A stretch of 64,000 bases of DNA from Halobacteriales archaeon QH_7_65_31 (GTDB lineage Archaea > Halobacteriota > Halobacteria > Halobacteriales > Haloarculaceae): assembly GCA_003021785.1 (NCBI GenBank), contig PXQU01000008.1, forward strand, positions 1 to 64,000. Direction: 5' to 3'. This document shows, piece by piece, positions 48,892 through 55,992 of this stretch. The notes beneath the pieces were generated by a model. The model made no database searches. It was not told the DNA's origin and saw only the letters and a program-made list of their open reading frames with translations. The position numbers and the translations under genes were made by a program. How positions within the stretch are numbered: position 1 is the stretch's first letter; every line of letters starts with the position of its first letter.

Positions 48892-49968
48892 TCAGAACAG
48901 CCCGTCCAGCTCGTCGCTCACCAGCGACTCCGTCGCGTCCGACTGCTCTTCGGGCTCGTCGCTCGCCGCGCTCGCTCTCTCGAAGAACTCCTGAATCCGT
49001 GGTGATCGCTCGACGCCGCCGAGCAGGACGAGCGCGGCCAGTCGCTCGGAGTCGAGCGGGTAATCTCCCCCGCGCACCTGCATCGAGTCGAGCTCCGTCT
49101 CCAGCCAGCTTCGGGCTGACTCGACCCCCTTGCGGCTGATACGGTCGGTCTCGCCGGCGACGATGAGGAGCCCGCTCTCGGCCGTCGTCGCGTCGGGGAG
49201 ACTCGTCCCCGTCAGGAGGGCGTTGCGCGTGACGGAGGTGATCGTGTTGAGGTTCGCGTCGGCGTCGGGACTGCTCTCCGCCGACGCGTATCCGATGGCA
49301 GCGAGCGTCCCCGCTCGAAGCGTGTTGATGACCTCGGAGCTATCGACCACGGACTCGGCGGTGGCGGTTCCGGGCTCGATCTCACCGGCCGCGAGCAGCA
49401 GTCCGACCCGCTGGGCGATGTTCTCGTTGATGCTCGCGTACCCCTCGTCCATCGACTCGCCGCTCTGTCGCCACGCGTCGTTGTCGACGAGCAGGGTCGC
49501 GTCGGTCTCCCTCGCCAGCGTCTTCAGCGACCGACCGGCGTTGCGCTGGTACAGCGCCCCCTCGTCGCGTCCCGGAAGCACACCGAGCACGTAGACGGGC
49601 ACGTCGTAGACGCGCTTGAGTTCGTGTGCGAGGACCGGTGCGCCGCCGGAGCCGGTTCCGCCGCCGAGCCCAGCGGTGATGAGGATGGCTTCACACGCAG
49701 AGCCGACGCGACCGGCGATCGCATCGAGCACCTCGTTGGCGTCGTCCTGTACGACCGTCGCGCCGAGCTCGTTGTCGCCGCCGACGCCGTGACCGTTGAC
49801 CCGATCCGCGCCGACCAGATGCGTGTCCAGATCGAGCGAGGAGAGATCTGCACGCGCGCTGTTGATAGCGAGCGAGCCGACGACGCTATCGGTCGCGAGC
49901 GGATCGCGTCCGATCGCTTCGGCCAACTTGCCGCCGGCCTGACCGACGCCGATGAGTGCGACTCTCAT
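48892..49968 (-). CDS. cetZ: CetZ-family tubulin-like protein
   Basis: This 358-residue protein is a CetZ tubulin-superfamily GTPase, specific to archaea and linked in haloarchaea to cell shape and motility. The N-terminal GVGQAGGK is at 7-14, the nucleotide signature GGGTGSG at 102-108, and the T7-like end of the N-domain VVDSSEVINTL follows. The GHGVGGDNELGA motif separates CetZ from FtsZ. A short acidic C-tail is present. Similarity in the 'DNDAWRQSGES' and 'INENIAQRVG' segments supports CetZ; I cannot tell CetZ2 from other paralogues with certainty. It is divergent from the DUF7504/CHAT operon. Confidence 0.9.
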   Translation of the reverse strand: MRVALIGVGQAGGKLAEAIGRDPLATDSVVGSLAINSARADLSSLDLDTHLVGADRVNGHGVGGDNELGATVVQDDANEVLDAIAGRVGSACEAILITAGLGGGTGSGGAPVLAHELKRVYDVPVYVLGVLPGRDEGALYQRNAGRSLKTLARETDATLLVDNDAWRQSGESMDEGYASINENIAQRVGLLLAAGEIEPGTATAESVVDSSEVINTLRAGTLAAIGYASAESSPDADANLNTITSVTRNALLTGTSLPDATTAESGLLIVAGETDRISRKGVESARSWLETELDSMQVRGGDYPLDSERLAALVLLGGVERSPRIQEFFERASAASDEPEEQSDATESLVSDELDGLF

Positions 49969-50133: not shown

Positions 50134-50880
50134 ATGGCCGAGTTTCGTTCGCTGGATCTCGACGAGCCTCCCGACGGCATCGACGCGTACATCGATGCGC
50201 TGAACCGACAGGGCGGGAGCATCCTCACGACGGGGGGCCTGTCACCACGCGTCGTGGCCGACGTCTCACGGGAGCTGTTCGGCTCGGTCGGCATCGCCGA
50301 CGGAACGCCGCTGCGCCGGCGTATCATCCTCCAGACGCACACGACGATCCCCGCCGAGCGGTATCTCCCCGACGGGGTCGAGACGGGGTCACCGCTCGCG
50401 AAGGCGATCACCGTTCCGGGGGCAGACCGGACCAGCGTGGATCTACAGCAGAGCAGCGACACCAGTCCCTTCGCGCCGGATCGTCTCTCCTCCGGGTTTC
50501 CCGACGAACTCGAACAGACGCTCACGGCGGTCTCTGCTGCGATCACCGAGCTACTCGACCCTGTCGAGAACCCCGAACCCGGGGAGATTCGGCTCGTCTC
50601 TACCGATATCGCGCCGCTGTTACGGCGATTTGACGTTACTGCCGTCGAGACGTTCATCGAGCGGCTCACGGCGCTCGTCCGACAGCACCGCGGGTTGGCT
50701 TTCGTCTTCTTGGTCACCCCGAGCCGGTGGAACTGGAAGGAGAACATCGTCCCCCACATGGAAGGAGAACTGGAGGTGTTCGCGCTGAAGGGCGGCGAAA
50801 CGCACATGAAGTGGCAGTTCCCCGACGAGACGGTCTCCGGCGTCGGATCGATCCAGCCGTGGAGGGCGATGAACGAGTGA
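50134..50880 (+). CDS. DUF7504-like RecA-fold protein without Walker A
   Basis: The 248-residue protein resembles the haloarchaeal DUF7504 group, a degenerate RecA/KaiC-like fold. Where a P-loop should be there is GGSILTTGGLSPRVV, with no GKT/S. The sequence then shows VRLVSTDIAPLLRRFDV and LAFVFLVTPSRWNW in the positions of RecA strands. ATP binding is therefore unlikely. The next gene, a CHAT-domain protein, overlaps it by four bases (GTGA), so the two products are made together. This tight coupling suggests a regulator or sensor for the protease (inference). Confidence 0.6.
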   Translation: MAEFRSLDLDEPPDGIDAYIDALNRQGGSILTTGGLSPRVVADVSRELFGSVGIADGTPLRRRIILQTHTTIPAERYLPDGVETGSPLAKAITVPGADRTSVDLQQSSDTSPFAPDRLSSGFPDELEQTLTAVSAAITELLDPVENPEPGEIRLVSTDIAPLLRRFDVTAVETFIERLTALVRQHRGLAFVFLVTPSRWNWKENIVPHMEGELEVFALKGGETHMKWQFPDETVSGVGSIQPWRAMNE

Positions 50881-53180
50881 CTACCGGACGGCAGAACGCT
50901 GCTGTCGCAGGCGGGAACCCCATCAGCTGGACGGTCGAGAACGACGGCAGCCGGCTTCGGGTCGTCGACAGTATCGAGCGTCGGCAGCTCACGTTCACCC
51001 CCGAAGAGGGCGGGCGGCTCTCGGTCGCAGACGTGGCCCGCGAGTGGTTCGTCCCGGTGGACCGAGCGGCGACGCTCGGCGTCTCCACGCTGTGGCTCCC
51101 GACGACGTGGGACGTCTTCCTGCGAGCGCCGGACGGGACACTGCTTGCGGATATTCCCGCCGGAGAGACCGGCGCGGTGACCGACAAGGCAGTCGCGGAG
51201 GTCACCACCGCCCCGATAAAGATCTACTTCGCGAGCCGCGGCGGGCTTCGCGTCTCGACGGTCGACGGGCAGACGCGGCTCGAAGGAGTCGGGGGCACGC
51301 CGCTCGTCCTTGGGGCCCGCTCACCGCACGAACAGCCCGCCCGAACGATCACCGTTCCGCCGACGCCGGAGGGGTATATGCGCGGCGTCTCGGAGTTCGG
51401 AGCCGCGCTCAAGACGGCGTCTCCGGAACGGACCTTTCCGACGCTCCGCGGCTATCCCCCCGAGATACAGATCGGATCGGAGCTCGACATTCCACAGGGG
51501 CCACAGCGGCCCGAGACGGGCGTCACCCTCCGACTTCCACGCACCGTCGAGACCGTGTTCGCGGCCGCGCCGCTCGCGTACTTCCTCGGCGCGGAGATCG
51601 AACCCGGACGGCCCCCGCGGCTCGAACTGGACGGCGACCGGACCGTCCCGATCGATTCGTTCGGAGCGACGACCCCAGAGGCGCTCCACCGGCTACTCGT
51701 CCACACGTTCACGTTAGACTGTGTCGCTCGGACGGAAGGGCAGTATCCGATGGAGCTGTCGGCCCGACGAACGATCGAGGCGGCCGGGGTACGGCTGGAC
51801 TGGGAAGCGATCTACGAGAAGCCGCTCGCCGACCGGCTCGCCGCCTTCCTCTCGGTCGATCTGCAGACGGTCGAAGCCGCCGCCCCCGACTGGCGACTCA
51901 CCGCAGATATCCCTGAAACGGACGATAGCGGGCCGCTTCTCCCACACCTCGCGAACGAACTGGCCGACATCCGCACGTATCCGGCAGACCACTACCCGTC
52001 CGAATCGCGGGAGCGGGCCTCGACCGGACAGCCGTCCGTCTCCGAGCAGGTGAACGACGCGACCGACACGCTCCTGCGAGGGGCCGACCCTCGTCCACCG
52101 GGAGGGGAATCGGGAGCGGTCAACGACCGGGTCCCGCGGTCTGTCGAGGACGCTTCCGCGACGCCCGACGTGTTCCGGATCCGTCGCGCGGATTCGATCC
52201 TGCAGGTGTACGCCGGGAACGGCGTTCCGATCGGAGCGAACAAGATCACGGAGGAGTCGTATCTCCGCCATCTCTCCGAGACGCCCGACGAGACCGCGGC
52301 CCTGCGGGTCGTCGTGGTCTGCAACGATACGGAGATGCTGGCCGAGGCGAGCGTCGAGGAGATCTACTCGTCTGCGCCGCTGCTCAGCGTGACCGGCGAG
52401 CTGCGGACCAACCTCACCGTCGATTCGCTCCGCGATCTCCTTCAGTCGGATATCGACCTGATCCACTACATCGGCCACGTCTCCGAACGCGGTCTCAGCT
52501 GTGCGGACGGCCATCTCGACATCGGCGATCTGGACGCCGTCTCGGCCCAGCTGTTCATCCTCAACGGCTGTCGGTCGTTCAGACAGGGCGAGAAGCTGGT
52601 GGAGAACGGCGCGCTCGCCGGCGTGGGAACGCTTCAGAACGTGAACAATCAGGTCGCGACCGAGATGGGCAAGAAGATCGCACAGCTCCTCCAGCACGGG
52701 TGGCCCCTCGCCGGGGCATTATCACTGCTCCGGTTCGATGCGATCGCCGGACAGGAGTACACCGTCCTCGGGGACGGGACCGCCGAGCTCGTGAGCGCGG
52801 ACAGCGGCGTTCCCGCCTGCTGTCTCGTCGAGCCGACCCCCGACGGGGAGTACCGTGTCAGCATAGACACGTATCTCACTCGGGTCCGTCATCTCGGGAC
52901 CATCTTCCGACCGTCGTTCGGAGAGGATGACGTCTACCACCTCGCGGGCGGAGAGGTCTCGCAGTGGGTCGCCGACGAGACCGAGCTCCGTGAGCTGTTC
53001 GAGCGCGAGAACGCCCCTGTACAGCTTCGCCGGGAGCGGTCCAGTACGAAGCTCTCTCTGCGATGGTCTCACGACTTGGCTGAAGACATGAGCCCACTAT
53101 CTGATGGACTCACTGAGCGTATGAGTCCGTCTTCGCCACTGAGCGACAGTTCATCGAAAGAAACTACCGAAACTGACTAA
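50877..53180 (+). CDS. CHAT-domain (caspase-like) protease
   Basis: This 767-residue protein starts with GTG at 50877. The C-terminal part contains a CHAT/caspase-like core: IDLIHYIGHVSERG, with H530 and the likely catalytic H534, and FILNGCRSF, with C565 as nucleophile. This is followed by the GVGTLQNVNNQVATEMGKKIAQLL segment. The N-terminal 400 residues have beta-rich blocks and no recognised domain; a Ser/Pro/Glu-rich linker lies near residues 395-430. The C-terminus is Ser-rich. CHAT proteases act in caspase-like cell-death and defence systems in bacteria and in type III-E CRISPR. Here the partners are a DUF7504-like protein and a nearby hydrophobic peptide. Confidence 0.8.
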   Translation: MTTGRQNAAVAGGNPISWTVENDGSRLRVVDSIERRQLTFTPEEGGRLSVADVAREWFVPVDRAATLGVSTLWLPTTWDVFLRAPDGTLLADIPAGETGAVTDKAVAEVTTAPIKIYFASRGGLRVSTVDGQTRLEGVGGTPLVLGARSPHEQPARTITVPPTPEGYMRGVSEFGAALKTASPERTFPTLRGYPPEIQIGSELDIPQGPQRPETGVTLRLPRTVETVFAAAPLAYFLGAEIEPGRPPRLELDGDRTVPIDSFGATTPEALHRLLVHTFTLDCVARTEGQYPMELSARRTIEAAGVRLDWEAIYEKPLADRLAAFLSVDLQTVEAAAPDWRLTADIPETDDSGPLLPHLANELADIRTYPADHYPSESRERASTGQPSVSEQVNDATDTLLRGADPRPPGGESGAVNDRVPRSVEDASATPDVFRIRRADSILQVYAGNGVPIGANKITEESYLRHLSETPDETAALRVVVVCNDTEMLAEASVEEIYSSAPLLSVTGELRTNLTVDSLRDLLQSDIDLIHYIGHVSERGLSCADGHLDIGDLDAVSAQLFILNGCRSFRQGEKLVENGALAGVGTLQNVNNQVATEMGKKIAQLLQHGWPLAGALSLLRFDAIAGQEYTVLGDGTAELVSADSGVPACCLVEPTPDGEYRVSIDTYLTRVRHLGTIFRPSFGEDDVYHLAGGEVSQWVADETELRELFERENAPVQLRRERSSTKLSLRWSHDLAEDMSPLSDGLTERMSPSSPLSDSSSKETTETD

Positions 53181-53182
53181 GA

Positions 53183-53317
53183 TTACGGGCCTGAGACAGC
53201 AGAGCCGAGGGGTGCAGTGGCCGACATCGTCTGTGTCAACAGCAGTACTGCTGTGAACAGGACGCCGGCGAATTTCGGCTCCGATGCAACAAAGGACGCG
53301 ACTGGATTGTCGTCCAT
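53183..53317 (-). CDS. 44-residue hydrophobic peptide (DUF7503-like)
   Basis: The ATG at 53317 gives MDDNPVASFVASEPKF, then a hydrophobic helix FAGVLFTAVLLLTQ (about residues 16-29) and a small-residue tail MSATAPLGSAVSGP. It resembles the haloarchaeal DUF7503 group, small peptides with an acidic start, one hydrophobic helix and a Gly/Pro end. TTATAA lies 20-25 nt before the ATG on the minus strand (leaderless). It is convergent with the CHAT gene (stops 2 bp apart) and divergent from the pilus operon. Its size and position suggest a secreted or membrane peptide linked to the protease (inference). Confidence 0.65.
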   Translation of the reverse strand: MDDNPVASFVASEPKFAGVLFTAVLLLTQTMSATAPLGSAVSGP

Positions 53318-53336
53318 ATCCCCGCCTGATAGCGAG

Positions 53337-53342
53337 TTATAA
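53337..53342 (-). promoter_or_regulatory. TATA element of the 44-residue peptide gene
   Basis: TTATAA (its own reverse complement) lies 20-25 nt before the ATG at 53317. The 60 bp beyond it are the most AT-rich stretch of this part of the window. Confidence 0.5.
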
Positions 53343-53418
53343 TCAATCCTCGAATTTCAAAATAACTATATACGATAAGTAAAATTCCGTAGCAACAAAA
53401 TATCCGATCGGCTGGCAA

Positions 53419-53451: not shown

Positions 53452-53799
53452 ATGGACGAGGACACCATCGATGCGCGGCTCGCGGCCGTCGAGCGAACGC
53501 TCACCGACTCCGAGACCGCGCCGGCGTCGCTCGCCGACGAGGCGACCCTCCAGCGGCGACTCACTGATGTCGAGTCAAAAATCGACGCGCTGGAGACGCG
53601 ACTCGCCGACACGGAAGGGGAACTGACAGCAGTCCGGGCACACGTCGGTGACGCACGACGCGTCGACGCGGAGACCGAACGAATCGCCGAGCGCGCGCTC
53701 GCGCTCGCTCGCGAGACGGACACAGATGACGAGACACCGACCCGGACTATGTCGGTGCTGTCGCGACTGTTCGCGCGGCTTCGCGCCCTGACGCCGTGA
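53452..53799 (+). CDS. Coiled-coil protein (DUF7310-like), first gene of the pilus/T2SS operon
   Basis: The 115-residue protein is a single long coiled coil (about residues 5-95: LAAVERTLTDSE, LQRRLTDVESKIDALETRLADTEGELTAVRAHVG). It has no membrane segment. It fits the small coiled-coil family I recall as DUF7310, which precedes T2SS-like ATPases in haloarchaea. Its stop overlaps the next start (GTGA). It may be a cytoplasmic adaptor of the ATPase (inference). Confidence 0.65.
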   Translation: MDEDTIDARLAAVERTLTDSETAPASLADEATLQRRLTDVESKIDALETRLADTEGELTAVRAHVGDARRVDAETERIAERALALARETDTDDETPTRTMSVLSRLFARLRALTP

Positions 53800-54230
53800 T
53801 TATCCGGCTCGTCGTGGCGGTACTGCTCACCGCTGCGCTCCTCGGCGTCGGGCTACCGGCCGCCGAGACCGCCCAATCAGAGCGAGCCGCGACCCTCGCG
53901 CGGGACGAGCTGACCGAGCTCCGCGAGACGCTGGCCCGATTCGAAACGCGCAACGACGCCACCCGACCGGGGCTACCGGGTGCGACCCGCCTGTACACGC
54001 TCCGTGTTCCGGCGGGAGTAACTGTTCGACTTGGTGTCGGTCCCCGAAACGAGTCGATACAGTGGAGCCGCGGAGAACGCCGCGGACGGGTCGAGACCGA
54101 CCTCCCGCTGGCGGATACGCTCAGACTCACCGGCGGAACACATCGGCTGCGGCTCCGCCTCGTCCGAGTGGACGGGGAGCCGCGGATCCGCGTCCGGAGA
54201 TTCAAGTCGGATCCCGCGACCACCGGCTGA
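53796..54230 (+). CDS. DUF7311-like membrane-anchored protein
   Basis: This 144-residue protein begins with a hydrophobic helix (IIRLVVAVLLTAALLGVGLPAAETA). A basic/acidic beta-rich domain follows (RLYTLRVPAGVTVRLGVGP, THRLRLRLVRVDGEPRIRVRRF). It starts with GTG at 53796, overlapping the coiled-coil gene, and is followed after one base by the ATPase start. It is probably an outward-facing anchored subunit of the machine. I recall the family as DUF7311. Confidence 0.65.
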   Translation: MIIRLVVAVLLTAALLGVGLPAAETAQSERAATLARDELTELRETLARFETRNDATRPGLPGATRLYTLRVPAGVTVRLGVGPRNESIQWSRGERRGRVETDLPLADTLRLTGGTHRLRLRLVRVDGEPRIRVRRFKSDPATTG

Positions 54231-54231
54231 T

Positions 54232-55992
54232 GTGTTCAGGTCCAGTGACGCAGAGGAGGTCTGTGGCTGTGAGCCACGCTTCGTCGACGACACGCTCCGT
54301 CTCGACGCGGACGAGTGCCCAGAGGAGGGTGAGCTGGCAACGGCTCCCGACTGCCGTGCGACCGCTATCGACGCGCTCCGTGACCGAGATGCCGATCTCG
54401 TTACTGTCCACGCCGCCGGGCTGGAACGTCGGTACGAGAACGCCACCCCGCTGCTCGTCGCAGCCGGACGCTTCGCCGCCCGGGCGGCGTTTCACGACGA
54501 GCCGCTGGCGGACCGCGCGCTGACCGATCCGCTCGACGCTGCGCGGCTGGCCGCTGGTCGTGCCGGTCCCGTCTCGCGTCTCGCCGTCGAAACGGGCCTC
54601 GTCGAGTGTGCGACTGCGGCCGACTCGTACGAGACGCTGTTCCGGCCACAGGTCGCGCCGGCGATCGCGACCGAGCGGGTCGTGCCGCGCCCGCCGCCGA
54701 ACGGGCGGCTCACCGATCGGTACGAGCTCGACACCGACGCGACCGTCAGCGTGTACGACTCGCCCGACGAGGCGCTTCGAACGTACCATCTCACGCCGGT
54801 CGAGCTCACGCTCGACGCGTCAGCGACGGCGACGCTCGATGCGGCCGCCGACCGACTCGTCGCGGACGCACTTGAGGGCCAGCGCGCGGCCGACCGCGCC
54901 GTCCGAGCGGTCGCGACCGACGAGACGCCGGTCGAGACGCTCACCGCCGTCCTCGACAAGCACACTCGCGGACTGGGCGCACTCTCTGACGTGTTCGCCG
55001 ACGCCGCCGTCTCGGACGTGTTCGCGTCCGCCCCTGTCGGCGCGTCACCGGTTCGAATCGAACACGAGGGACGGACCGTCCGTTCGAACGTCTTCCTCAC
55101 GACACAGAGCACGGACGCCCTCGCCTCGCGGTTTCGCCGCGAGAGCGGGCGAGCGTTCTCCCGCGCGAGCCCGACGCTCGACGCCTCCCTCTCCGTCGCC
55201 GGGCGCTCGGTTCGCGTCGCCGGCGTCACCGACCCCGTGAGCGACGGCACGGGGTTCACCTTCCGTGCGGACAGCCGCGATCGGTTTCGACTCGCCGACC
55301 TCGTCGCGAACGAGACCGTCTCGCCGGCGGTCGCCGGACTGCTCTCGGTCGCCGTCGAGCGGAGCGCGTCGATACTCGTCGCCGGCGGACGCGGCGTCGG
55401 CAAGACGACGCTGCTCGGTGCGTTACTCGGTGAACTCGACGCCGGGACGCGAACGGTCGTCGTCGAGGACACCCCCGAACTTCCGGTCGAATCGCTCCGC
55501 GCTGCGGGGTGGGACTGTCAACGGCTCCGCGTCGAGCGCGACGGCGACGGGATGGGACCGACCGAGGCGCTTCGCACCGCCCTCCGTCTCGGGGAGGGAG
55601 CCATCGCCGTCGGTGAGGTACGCGGTGAGGAGGCCGTCGCACTGTACGAAGCAATGCGCGTCGGCGCCGACGGGACGACGCTCGGGACGATCCACGGTGA
55701 GAGCCCGGAGACGGTTCGCGAACGCGTCACGACCGATCTCGGGGTCGCTCCGACCGCCTTCGCGGACACCGATCTCGTGGTGACGCTCGACCGAACCGAC
55801 GGTCGTCGCGTCACCGATCTCTCGGAGGTGGTCGGCCGTGACGCTCCGGCGTTCGCCACGCTGTTCGATCCCGCGGCGACCGGCCGAATCGACCGCGGTA
55901 ACAGCGCCGTCGTCGCCTCGCTCGCCCGCCCCGACGAGACGTACAGCGACGTACGCGAGCGCATCGAGCGTCGCGCAGCGACGTTCCGATGA
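54232..55992 (+). CDS. T2SS/archaeal pilus ATPase (GspE/FlaI-like)
   Basis: The 586-residue secretion ATPase has an N-terminal domain with a Cys cluster (CGCEPRF, ECPEE, PDCRA) that could bind metal. The motor domain has Walker A GGRGVGKTTLLG (K391), VVVEDTPELP as Asp box, GEGAIAVGEVRGEEAVALYEAMRVG as Walker B region, and the His box TIHGES. It powers assembly of pilus-like fibres with the membrane protein encoded next. The GTG at 54232 is preferred because it follows the previous stop by one base; a longer in-frame reading overlaps that gene. Confidence 0.9.
   Translation: MFRSSDAEEVCGCEPRFVDDTLRLDADECPEEGELATAPDCRATAIDALRDRDADLVTVHAAGLERRYENATPLLVAAGRFAARAAFHDEPLADRALTDPLDAARLAAGRAGPVSRLAVETGLVECATAADSYETLFRPQVAPAIATERVVPRPPPNGRLTDRYELDTDATVSVYDSPDEALRTYHLTPVELTLDASATATLDAAADRLVADALEGQRAADRAVRAVATDETPVETLTAVLDKHTRGLGALSDVFADAAVSDVFASAPVGASPVRIEHEGRTVRSNVFLTTQSTDALASRFRRESGRAFSRASPTLDASLSVAGRSVRVAGVTDPVSDGTGFTFRADSRDRFRLADLVANETVSPAVAGLLSVAVERSASILVAGGRGVGKTTLLGALLGELDAGTRTVVVEDTPELPVESLRAAGWDCQRLRVERDGDGMGPTEALRTALRLGEGAIAVGEVRGEEAVALYEAMRVGADGTTLGTIHGESPETVRERVTTDLGVAPTAFADTDLVVTLDRTDGRRVTDLSEVVGRDAPAFATLFDPAATGRIDRGNSAVVASLARPDETYSDVRERIERRAATFR

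Follow-up and report, generated by a model that had tools for sequence, protein, structure and literature searches.

The stretch of DNA analyzed in this study, 64,000 nucleotides of contig PXQU01000008.1 from Halobacteriales archaeon QH_7_65_31 (referred to here as the window), carries a gene for a 767-residue cysteine protease and, convergent with it at its 3' end, a gene for a hydrophobic micropeptide of 44 residues that belongs to the Pfam family DUF7503. We found that the two genes are paired in this way throughout the class Halobacteria, and they probably work as one unit. As an example of convergent genes conserved across a whole class, with 3' ends that touch or overlap, they are unusually clear. 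The reading that we tentatively favor is that the peptide is the dedicated partner of the protease and most likely its substrate, which would be cleaved when the protease is activated by stress. The comparative evidence for the pair is unusually strong and that for the outcome of its action is weak. A third gene, which encodes a DUF7504 protein, lies directly upstream of the protease gene. A preliminary description of the window had reported these three open reading frames (ORFs), the GTGA sequence that couples the DUF7504 and protease genes and the tiny convergent peptide gene, and all of these were confirmed in the sequence, the overlap being 4 bp and the peptide matching DUF7503 above the Pfam cut-off (Table 1).

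Conserved pairing of the protease and micropeptide genes

A search for DUF7503 no further than 400 bp from the 3' ends of full-length protease genes, of which there were 112 in 109 loci, found it at 100 of them, and in all 100 the orientation was convergent. The 3' ends of the pair overlap in 32 cases and are separated by a gap of 0-10 bp in 49, and thus in 81 of the 100 they overlap or lie within 10 bp of each other; the short overlaps read TTAG, TTAA, CTAG or CTAA. In the reverse direction, when the 30 best loci were picked by peptide score alone, the protease was present at the 3' end of the peptide gene and convergent with it in 30 out of 30. The counts in the two directions lie far from what chance would give. 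The protease family is present in 271 of 292 Halobacteria genomes (93%) and the DUF7503 peptide in 252, in 250 of which it scores over the curated cut-off, and a DUF7503 match over the cut-off was found in none of the 20 listed protease-less genomes (Fisher p=7e-20, uncorrected for phylogeny). The co-occurrence across Halobacteria of the three families named in the preliminary description is thus borne out, with DUF7504 as a looser third partner.

It is very improbable that the two genes lack a functional link and are neighbors merely by common descent, and that the overlap does no more than keep the locus compact or let the 3' ends regulate each other by antisense. Both genes are inherited in Halobacteria and a tight 3' overlap does make the transcripts complementary at their ends, but the pair persists while the surrounding genes vary, every neighbor family other than DUF7504 being confined to about a quarter of the 80 named loci or fewer. 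Moreover, the peptide was never found without the protease, be it in the 30 peptide-selected loci or in the 20 protease-less genomes, and the loci of the pair are found on plasmids and on chromosomes.

In 247 genomes drawn from the phylum outside Halobacteria, distant relatives of the protease were present in four genomes only (G299, G308, G317, and G326; loci L166-L169), all of one other family and without the peptide. The homologue in L168 has Arg and Asp in place of the catalytic His and Cys and, judged from its sequence, is probably a dead enzyme.

The protease has a predicted caspase-like fold and an intact dyad

The Pfam CHAT model scored the window protease at 20.3 bits (E=4e-4), which is below the cut-off of 24, and it matched only 3 of 20 protease relatives at E<=0.1, and therefore the CHAT label given to the protease in the preliminary description needed independent support. 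This support came from the alignment and from the predicted structure. Across 75 diverse members of the family, aligned with one another, His534 and Cys565 do not vary (75/75), and neither do H530, G533, F560, L562, N563, and S567, the conserved motifs being H-[YF]-[IV]-G-H ... L-N-[AG]-C-x-S; when relatives from outside Halobacteria were added, the catalytic His and Cys were kept in 118 of 119. The AlphaFold2 model of the protease has a mean predicted local distance difference test (pLDDT) score of 87.8 and a predicted template modeling (TM) score of 0.89. In this model the strand 528-532 is followed by H534 and the strand 559-563 by C565, which is the order found in the caspase fold. The solved structures that scored best in a Foldseek search were separase (5fby, E=2.6e-6), gingipain R (4ief and 1cvr, E=6e-6) and separase-securin complexes, and the matches to separase and gingipain R cover only part of the protease with target-normalized TM-scores of 0.30-0.45. 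These clan CD enzymes are thus the closest solved structures, whereas their other domains, substrates and context differ from those of the haloarchaeal protease. A sequence search of the PDB with the protease gave no match, and only the fold search did.

Taken together, the motifs in the 75 homologues and the predicted fold rescue the CHAT/separase assignment, and the claim that His534 and Cys565 stand in the order expected of a CHAT protease, with a caspase-like core around them, holds despite the Pfam score. Because the Pfam cut-off was not reached, we file the protease as clan CD, CHAT-like, and not as a Pfam CHAT member proper. By its model it is a clan CD, CHAT/separase-type cysteine peptidase, with predicted proteolytic activity. 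Since its members score under the Pfam cut-off and those tested had no NCBIfam match, annotation pipelines mostly call the family hypothetical; in public plasmid records most such proteases are named 'hypothetical protein', one 'caspase family protein' and one 'CHAT domain-containing protein'. The N-terminal part (residues ~16-372) is very conserved and no known domain was recognized in it. That it might be a second, degenerate caspase domain was ruled out by profile comparison (hhalign probability <1%).

Features of the DUF7503 micropeptide

The majority pattern of 94 distinct peptides is [YF]-L-x-x-[HN]-P-[RK]-x-x-G-[VA]-L-F-T-x-x-L-L-L-[ST]-Q-A-G-x-[AV]-A-[AG] followed by a short tail. The P-[KR] site and the F are present in 94 out of 94 and the C-terminal GP in 90, and in 71 of 92 matching peptides there is no charged residue after the P-[KR] site. 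The copy in the window is divergent, with EPK for HPR and QTM for QAG. Pairwise codon comparison of the peptide genes gave a ratio of nonsynonymous to synonymous differences (pN/pS) of 0.35 with the differences concentrated at third codon positions, and therefore the peptide gene behaves as a translated gene under selection. Upstream of the peptide ATG in the 94 loci, the A+T fraction is mostly 0.7-0.94 at -47 to -28 and about 0.3 at -22 to -17, and TATA-like hexamers cluster near -35 to -33. This A+T-rich block at a fixed distance makes it very likely, as far as sequence can tell, that the peptide gene has its own promoter. From its composition the peptide is predicted to cross the membrane once, its N-terminus lying inside.

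It is improbable that the hydrophobic part serves as a signal sequence and is cleaved at [AV]-A-[AG] so that an uncharged, GP-ending pheromone of 8-10 residues is freed, with the protease taking part in its processing or in the response to it. Such an exported signal would account for the constant position of [AV]-A-[AG] behind a helix-breaking G, the variable uncharged tail and the nearly constant GP end. Conservation, however, is highest in the supposed leader and lowest in the supposed mature peptide, which is the reverse of what is expected of peptide pheromones, and no receptor or exporter recurs in the neighborhood of 80 loci.

A possible mode of action of the pair

In the mode of action that we tentatively propose, the protease would be a cytosolic clan CD (CHAT/separase-like) cysteine peptidase and the DUF7503 product, made from its own promoter, would be a single-span membrane peptide and the dedicated partner of the protease. 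A stress signal, relayed in some loci by the KaiC-like DUF7504 protein, would activate the protease, which would cut the short cytosolic N-terminal part of the peptide beside the invariant Pro-[Lys/Arg], where the peptide enters the membrane, and the cut would alter the activity of the membrane-embedded remainder through its release, oligomerization or degradation. CHAT proteases commonly act on the products of adjoining genes (PMC9729208; Csx29-Csx30 in PMC10028731) and, by analogy, the invariant peptide partner may be read as a substrate. Since the nearest structural relatives of the protease cut after Arg, a clan CD enzyme would naturally be expected to cut at the invariant Pro-[Lys/Arg] bordering the span; the published TPR-CHAT (TPR, tetratricopeptide repeat) differs from separase at the P1-binding residue (PMC9729208).

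Several observations weigh against cleavage of a dedicated partner. No peptide was recognizable in 12 of the 112 protease loci, and a paralogue in the genome of the window itself (L010:5926-8199; G000:C16:304925-307126), which is 61% identical and has an intact dyad, has neither the peptide nor DUF7504 next to it. Some protease genes thus stand alone and therefore the protease can exist without a local peptide. Only about one locus in two has DUF7504, the putative relay, next to the protease. The P-[KR] site could equally well be a topology signal of the positive-inside kind. Lastly, residue covariation between the peptide and the protease was unspecific, as the DUF7504 control gave the same enrichment; 26 of the 50 top columns were in the protease domain, and tests on independent pairs had too few changes.

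The peptide might instead remain uncut and, as a membrane anchor or as a securin-like or antitoxin-like inhibitor, keep the protease membrane-bound or inactive before a signal comes, while the protease has other substrates. We consider this unlikely, though a serious contender. Published neighbor-encoded partners of CHAT proteases are substrates (PMC9729208), and the intact paralogues that stand free show that cells tolerate the protease where no peptide is linked to it. On the other hand, an anchor or inhibitor would agree with the obligatory pairing seen in the forward and reverse tests and with the conservation of the hydrophobic span and the C-terminal GP beyond the need of a mere cleavage linker, and the proteases that have no local peptide keep their dyad and would therefore have other substrates.

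A protease with a neighboring partner is, as such, already known. In bacteria, gasdermins are pore-formers much larger than the DUF7503 peptide, from which a protease removes a C-terminal inhibitory tail, leading to anti-phage cell death. Like the haloarchaeal pair, bacterial gasdermin with its CHAT or caspase-like protease, a system also cited in PMC9729208, combines a protease with a membrane-acting neighbor, whereas the haloarchaeal peptide has a single predicted span without an inhibitory-tail domain and the pair is near-universal and not patchy. In the type III-E CRISPR system (Craspase), Csx29-Csx30 likewise consists of a CHAT-type protease with a His/Cys dyad and a separase-like fold and a partner encoded next to it (PMC9729208, PMC10028731), and bacterial TPR-CHAT has itself been described as separase-like (PMC9729208). 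In the haloarchaeal pair, in contrast, no TPR repeats were recognized and there are no CRISPR genes, the N-terminal half of the protease being beta-rich and alpha/beta; Csx30 is a soluble protein of 565 residues, whereas the haloarchaeal partner is a hydrophobic peptide of 44. A literature search, outside which most subscription journals lie, gave no mention of DUF7503, DUF7504, or CHAT with haloarchaea or Haloferax, and in the literature searched the protease-peptide pair is thus undescribed.

The DUF7504 protein

The preliminary description had called the DUF7504 product a RecA-fold-like protein that lacks a P-loop, and this proved correct. Its AlphaFold2 model (pLDDT 83.8) matched KaiC in Foldseek (E=6e-8), as did its profile (E=8e-4). 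It thus shares the fold of the KaiC/RecA-superfamily ATPases and a weak sequence similarity with them, but unlike them the DUF7504 relatives have no Walker A P-loop (0/58). DUF7504 is a large paralogous family with 1-15 copies in each of the 97 genomes tested (97/97). It was found within 1 kb of the protease in at least 62 of the 112 loci (57 of the 100 paired and 5 unpaired), at least 38 being upstream in the same direction, 19 downstream and 5 upstream on the other strand, the counts being lower bounds because the neighbor search used a home-made profile. In the genome of the window another DUF7504 gene (L013:3398-4788) lies directly after a HalX response-regulator gene and overlaps its end, which suggests that DUF7504 proteins serve several signaling systems. 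A role as a signaling adaptor is plausible for DUF7504. The scheme of sensor, protease and membrane peptide put forward in the preliminary description thus stands for the protease, with its predicted fold and intact dyad, and for the inseparable hydrophobic peptide, and DUF7504 as the sensor holds only in part, in that it is KaiC-like without an ATP site and has a HalX-linked copy.

Defense, stress response or housekeeping

A role in anti-phage defense or cell death, which had also been suggested for the locus, is unsupported so far. The PADLOC models gave no match for the family, except that one member had a single weak JetD match (E=0.03). No copies of the family were found in phage and viral collections, and no recurrent defense family was recognized among the neighbor clusters of 80 loci, whose genes were not scanned with PADLOC. 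The protease does not have the patchy distribution of defense islands, being present in all but 21 of the 292 genomes. This near-universality together with these negative results argues against a typical anti-phage module, and a conserved stress function or a housekeeping role is more likely than a conventional defense island. The action of the pair would thus end in a stress response or in damage to the membrane that is regulated.

Archaea have been described as lacking clear caspase homologues, and haloarchaea show strong caspase-like activity to which no gene was assigned in the 2012 paper that reported it in Haloferax volcanii (PMC3615174). The pair provides a first gene candidate for this unexplained activity, and a caspase-fold family in 93% of the sampled haloarchaeal genomes, with a micropeptide partner, makes the question of caspase activity directly testable in Haloferax volcanii. 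It is quite improbable that the protease family is no death switch at all and simply yields the high basal caspase-like activity of H. volcanii, with the peptide merely localizing the protease. That activity has been proposed to be housekeeping (PMC3615174), the family is near-universal in haloarchaea, and H. volcanii carries DUF7503 and DUF7504. The reported activity, however, is directed at Asp (LEVD), in contrast to the Arg after which separase and gingipain R cleave, and it is reported to be widespread among Archaea, whereas within its phylum the protease family hardly occurs outside Halobacteria. In the boldest reading, which we regard as doubtful, haloarchaea would have a near-universal caspase/separase-like switch that acts on a dedicated 44-residue membrane micropeptide; it would be what Archaea have in place of other membrane effectors gated by a protease, and its genes would underlie the archaeal caspase-like stress response.

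Organization of the locus and additional observations

The features of the locus are listed in Table 1. The stop codons of the convergent protease and DUF7503 genes are separated by 2 bp in the window.

Table 1 Features of the protease-micropeptide locus in the 64-kb window
Feature	Position	Strand	Remarks
DUF7504 gene	50134-50880	+	248 aa; Pfam PF24336, E=1.7e-16, 61.7 bits against a cut-off of 27 (passed)
GTGA overlap of DUF7504 stop (TGA) and protease start (GTG)	50877-50880	+	4 bp; sequence
CHAT/separase-type cysteine protease gene (predicted)	50877-53180	+	767 aa, GTG start; predicted structure and 75-sequence alignment
Codon of predicted catalytic His534	52476-52478	+	HYIGH motif; invariant 75/75
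Codon of predicted catalytic Cys565	52569-52571	+	LNGCRS motif; invariant 75/75
DUF7503 micropeptide gene	53183-53317	-	44 aa; Pfam PF24335, E=1.2e-12, 47.6 bits against a cut-off of 27 (passed)
A+T-rich region upstream of the peptide gene	53318-53360	-	TATA-like TTATAA at ~53337-53342; sequence
Protease, beta-rich N-terminal domain	residues ~16-160
Protease, alpha/beta domain	residues ~160-372
Protease, disordered linker	residues 378-426
Protease, caspase-like domain	residues ~440-650
Protease, C-terminal part	residues ~650-750
Parts of the 44-aa peptide			N-terminal part, P-K site, hydrophobic span, uncharged tail ending Gly-Pro

Just upstream of the module and divergent from it is a CetZ tubulin-like gene (48892-49968), and just downstream (53452-55992) is a run of genes for DUF7310, DUF7311, and a type II/IV secretion-system ATPase (T2SSE). 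A downstream family of 137-residue proteins was considered as a part of the module and rejected because it is too rare (8 loci). A TGA reported inside the 61%-identical paralogue at C16:304925-307126 was likewise rejected as a gene break, as the ORF at L010 5926-8199 is intact and encodes 757 residues. The same genome has a distant third copy of the protease (L011:5113-7029; G000:C16:339115-340845) with an intact dyad and without DUF7503, which is flanked by genes for a TbsP-like regulator and a serine hydroxymethyltransferase. In Haladaptatus, the protease gene is duplicated in tandem in loci L105 (~10-12 kb) and L141 (12.2-14.3 kb), where no peptide was recognized.
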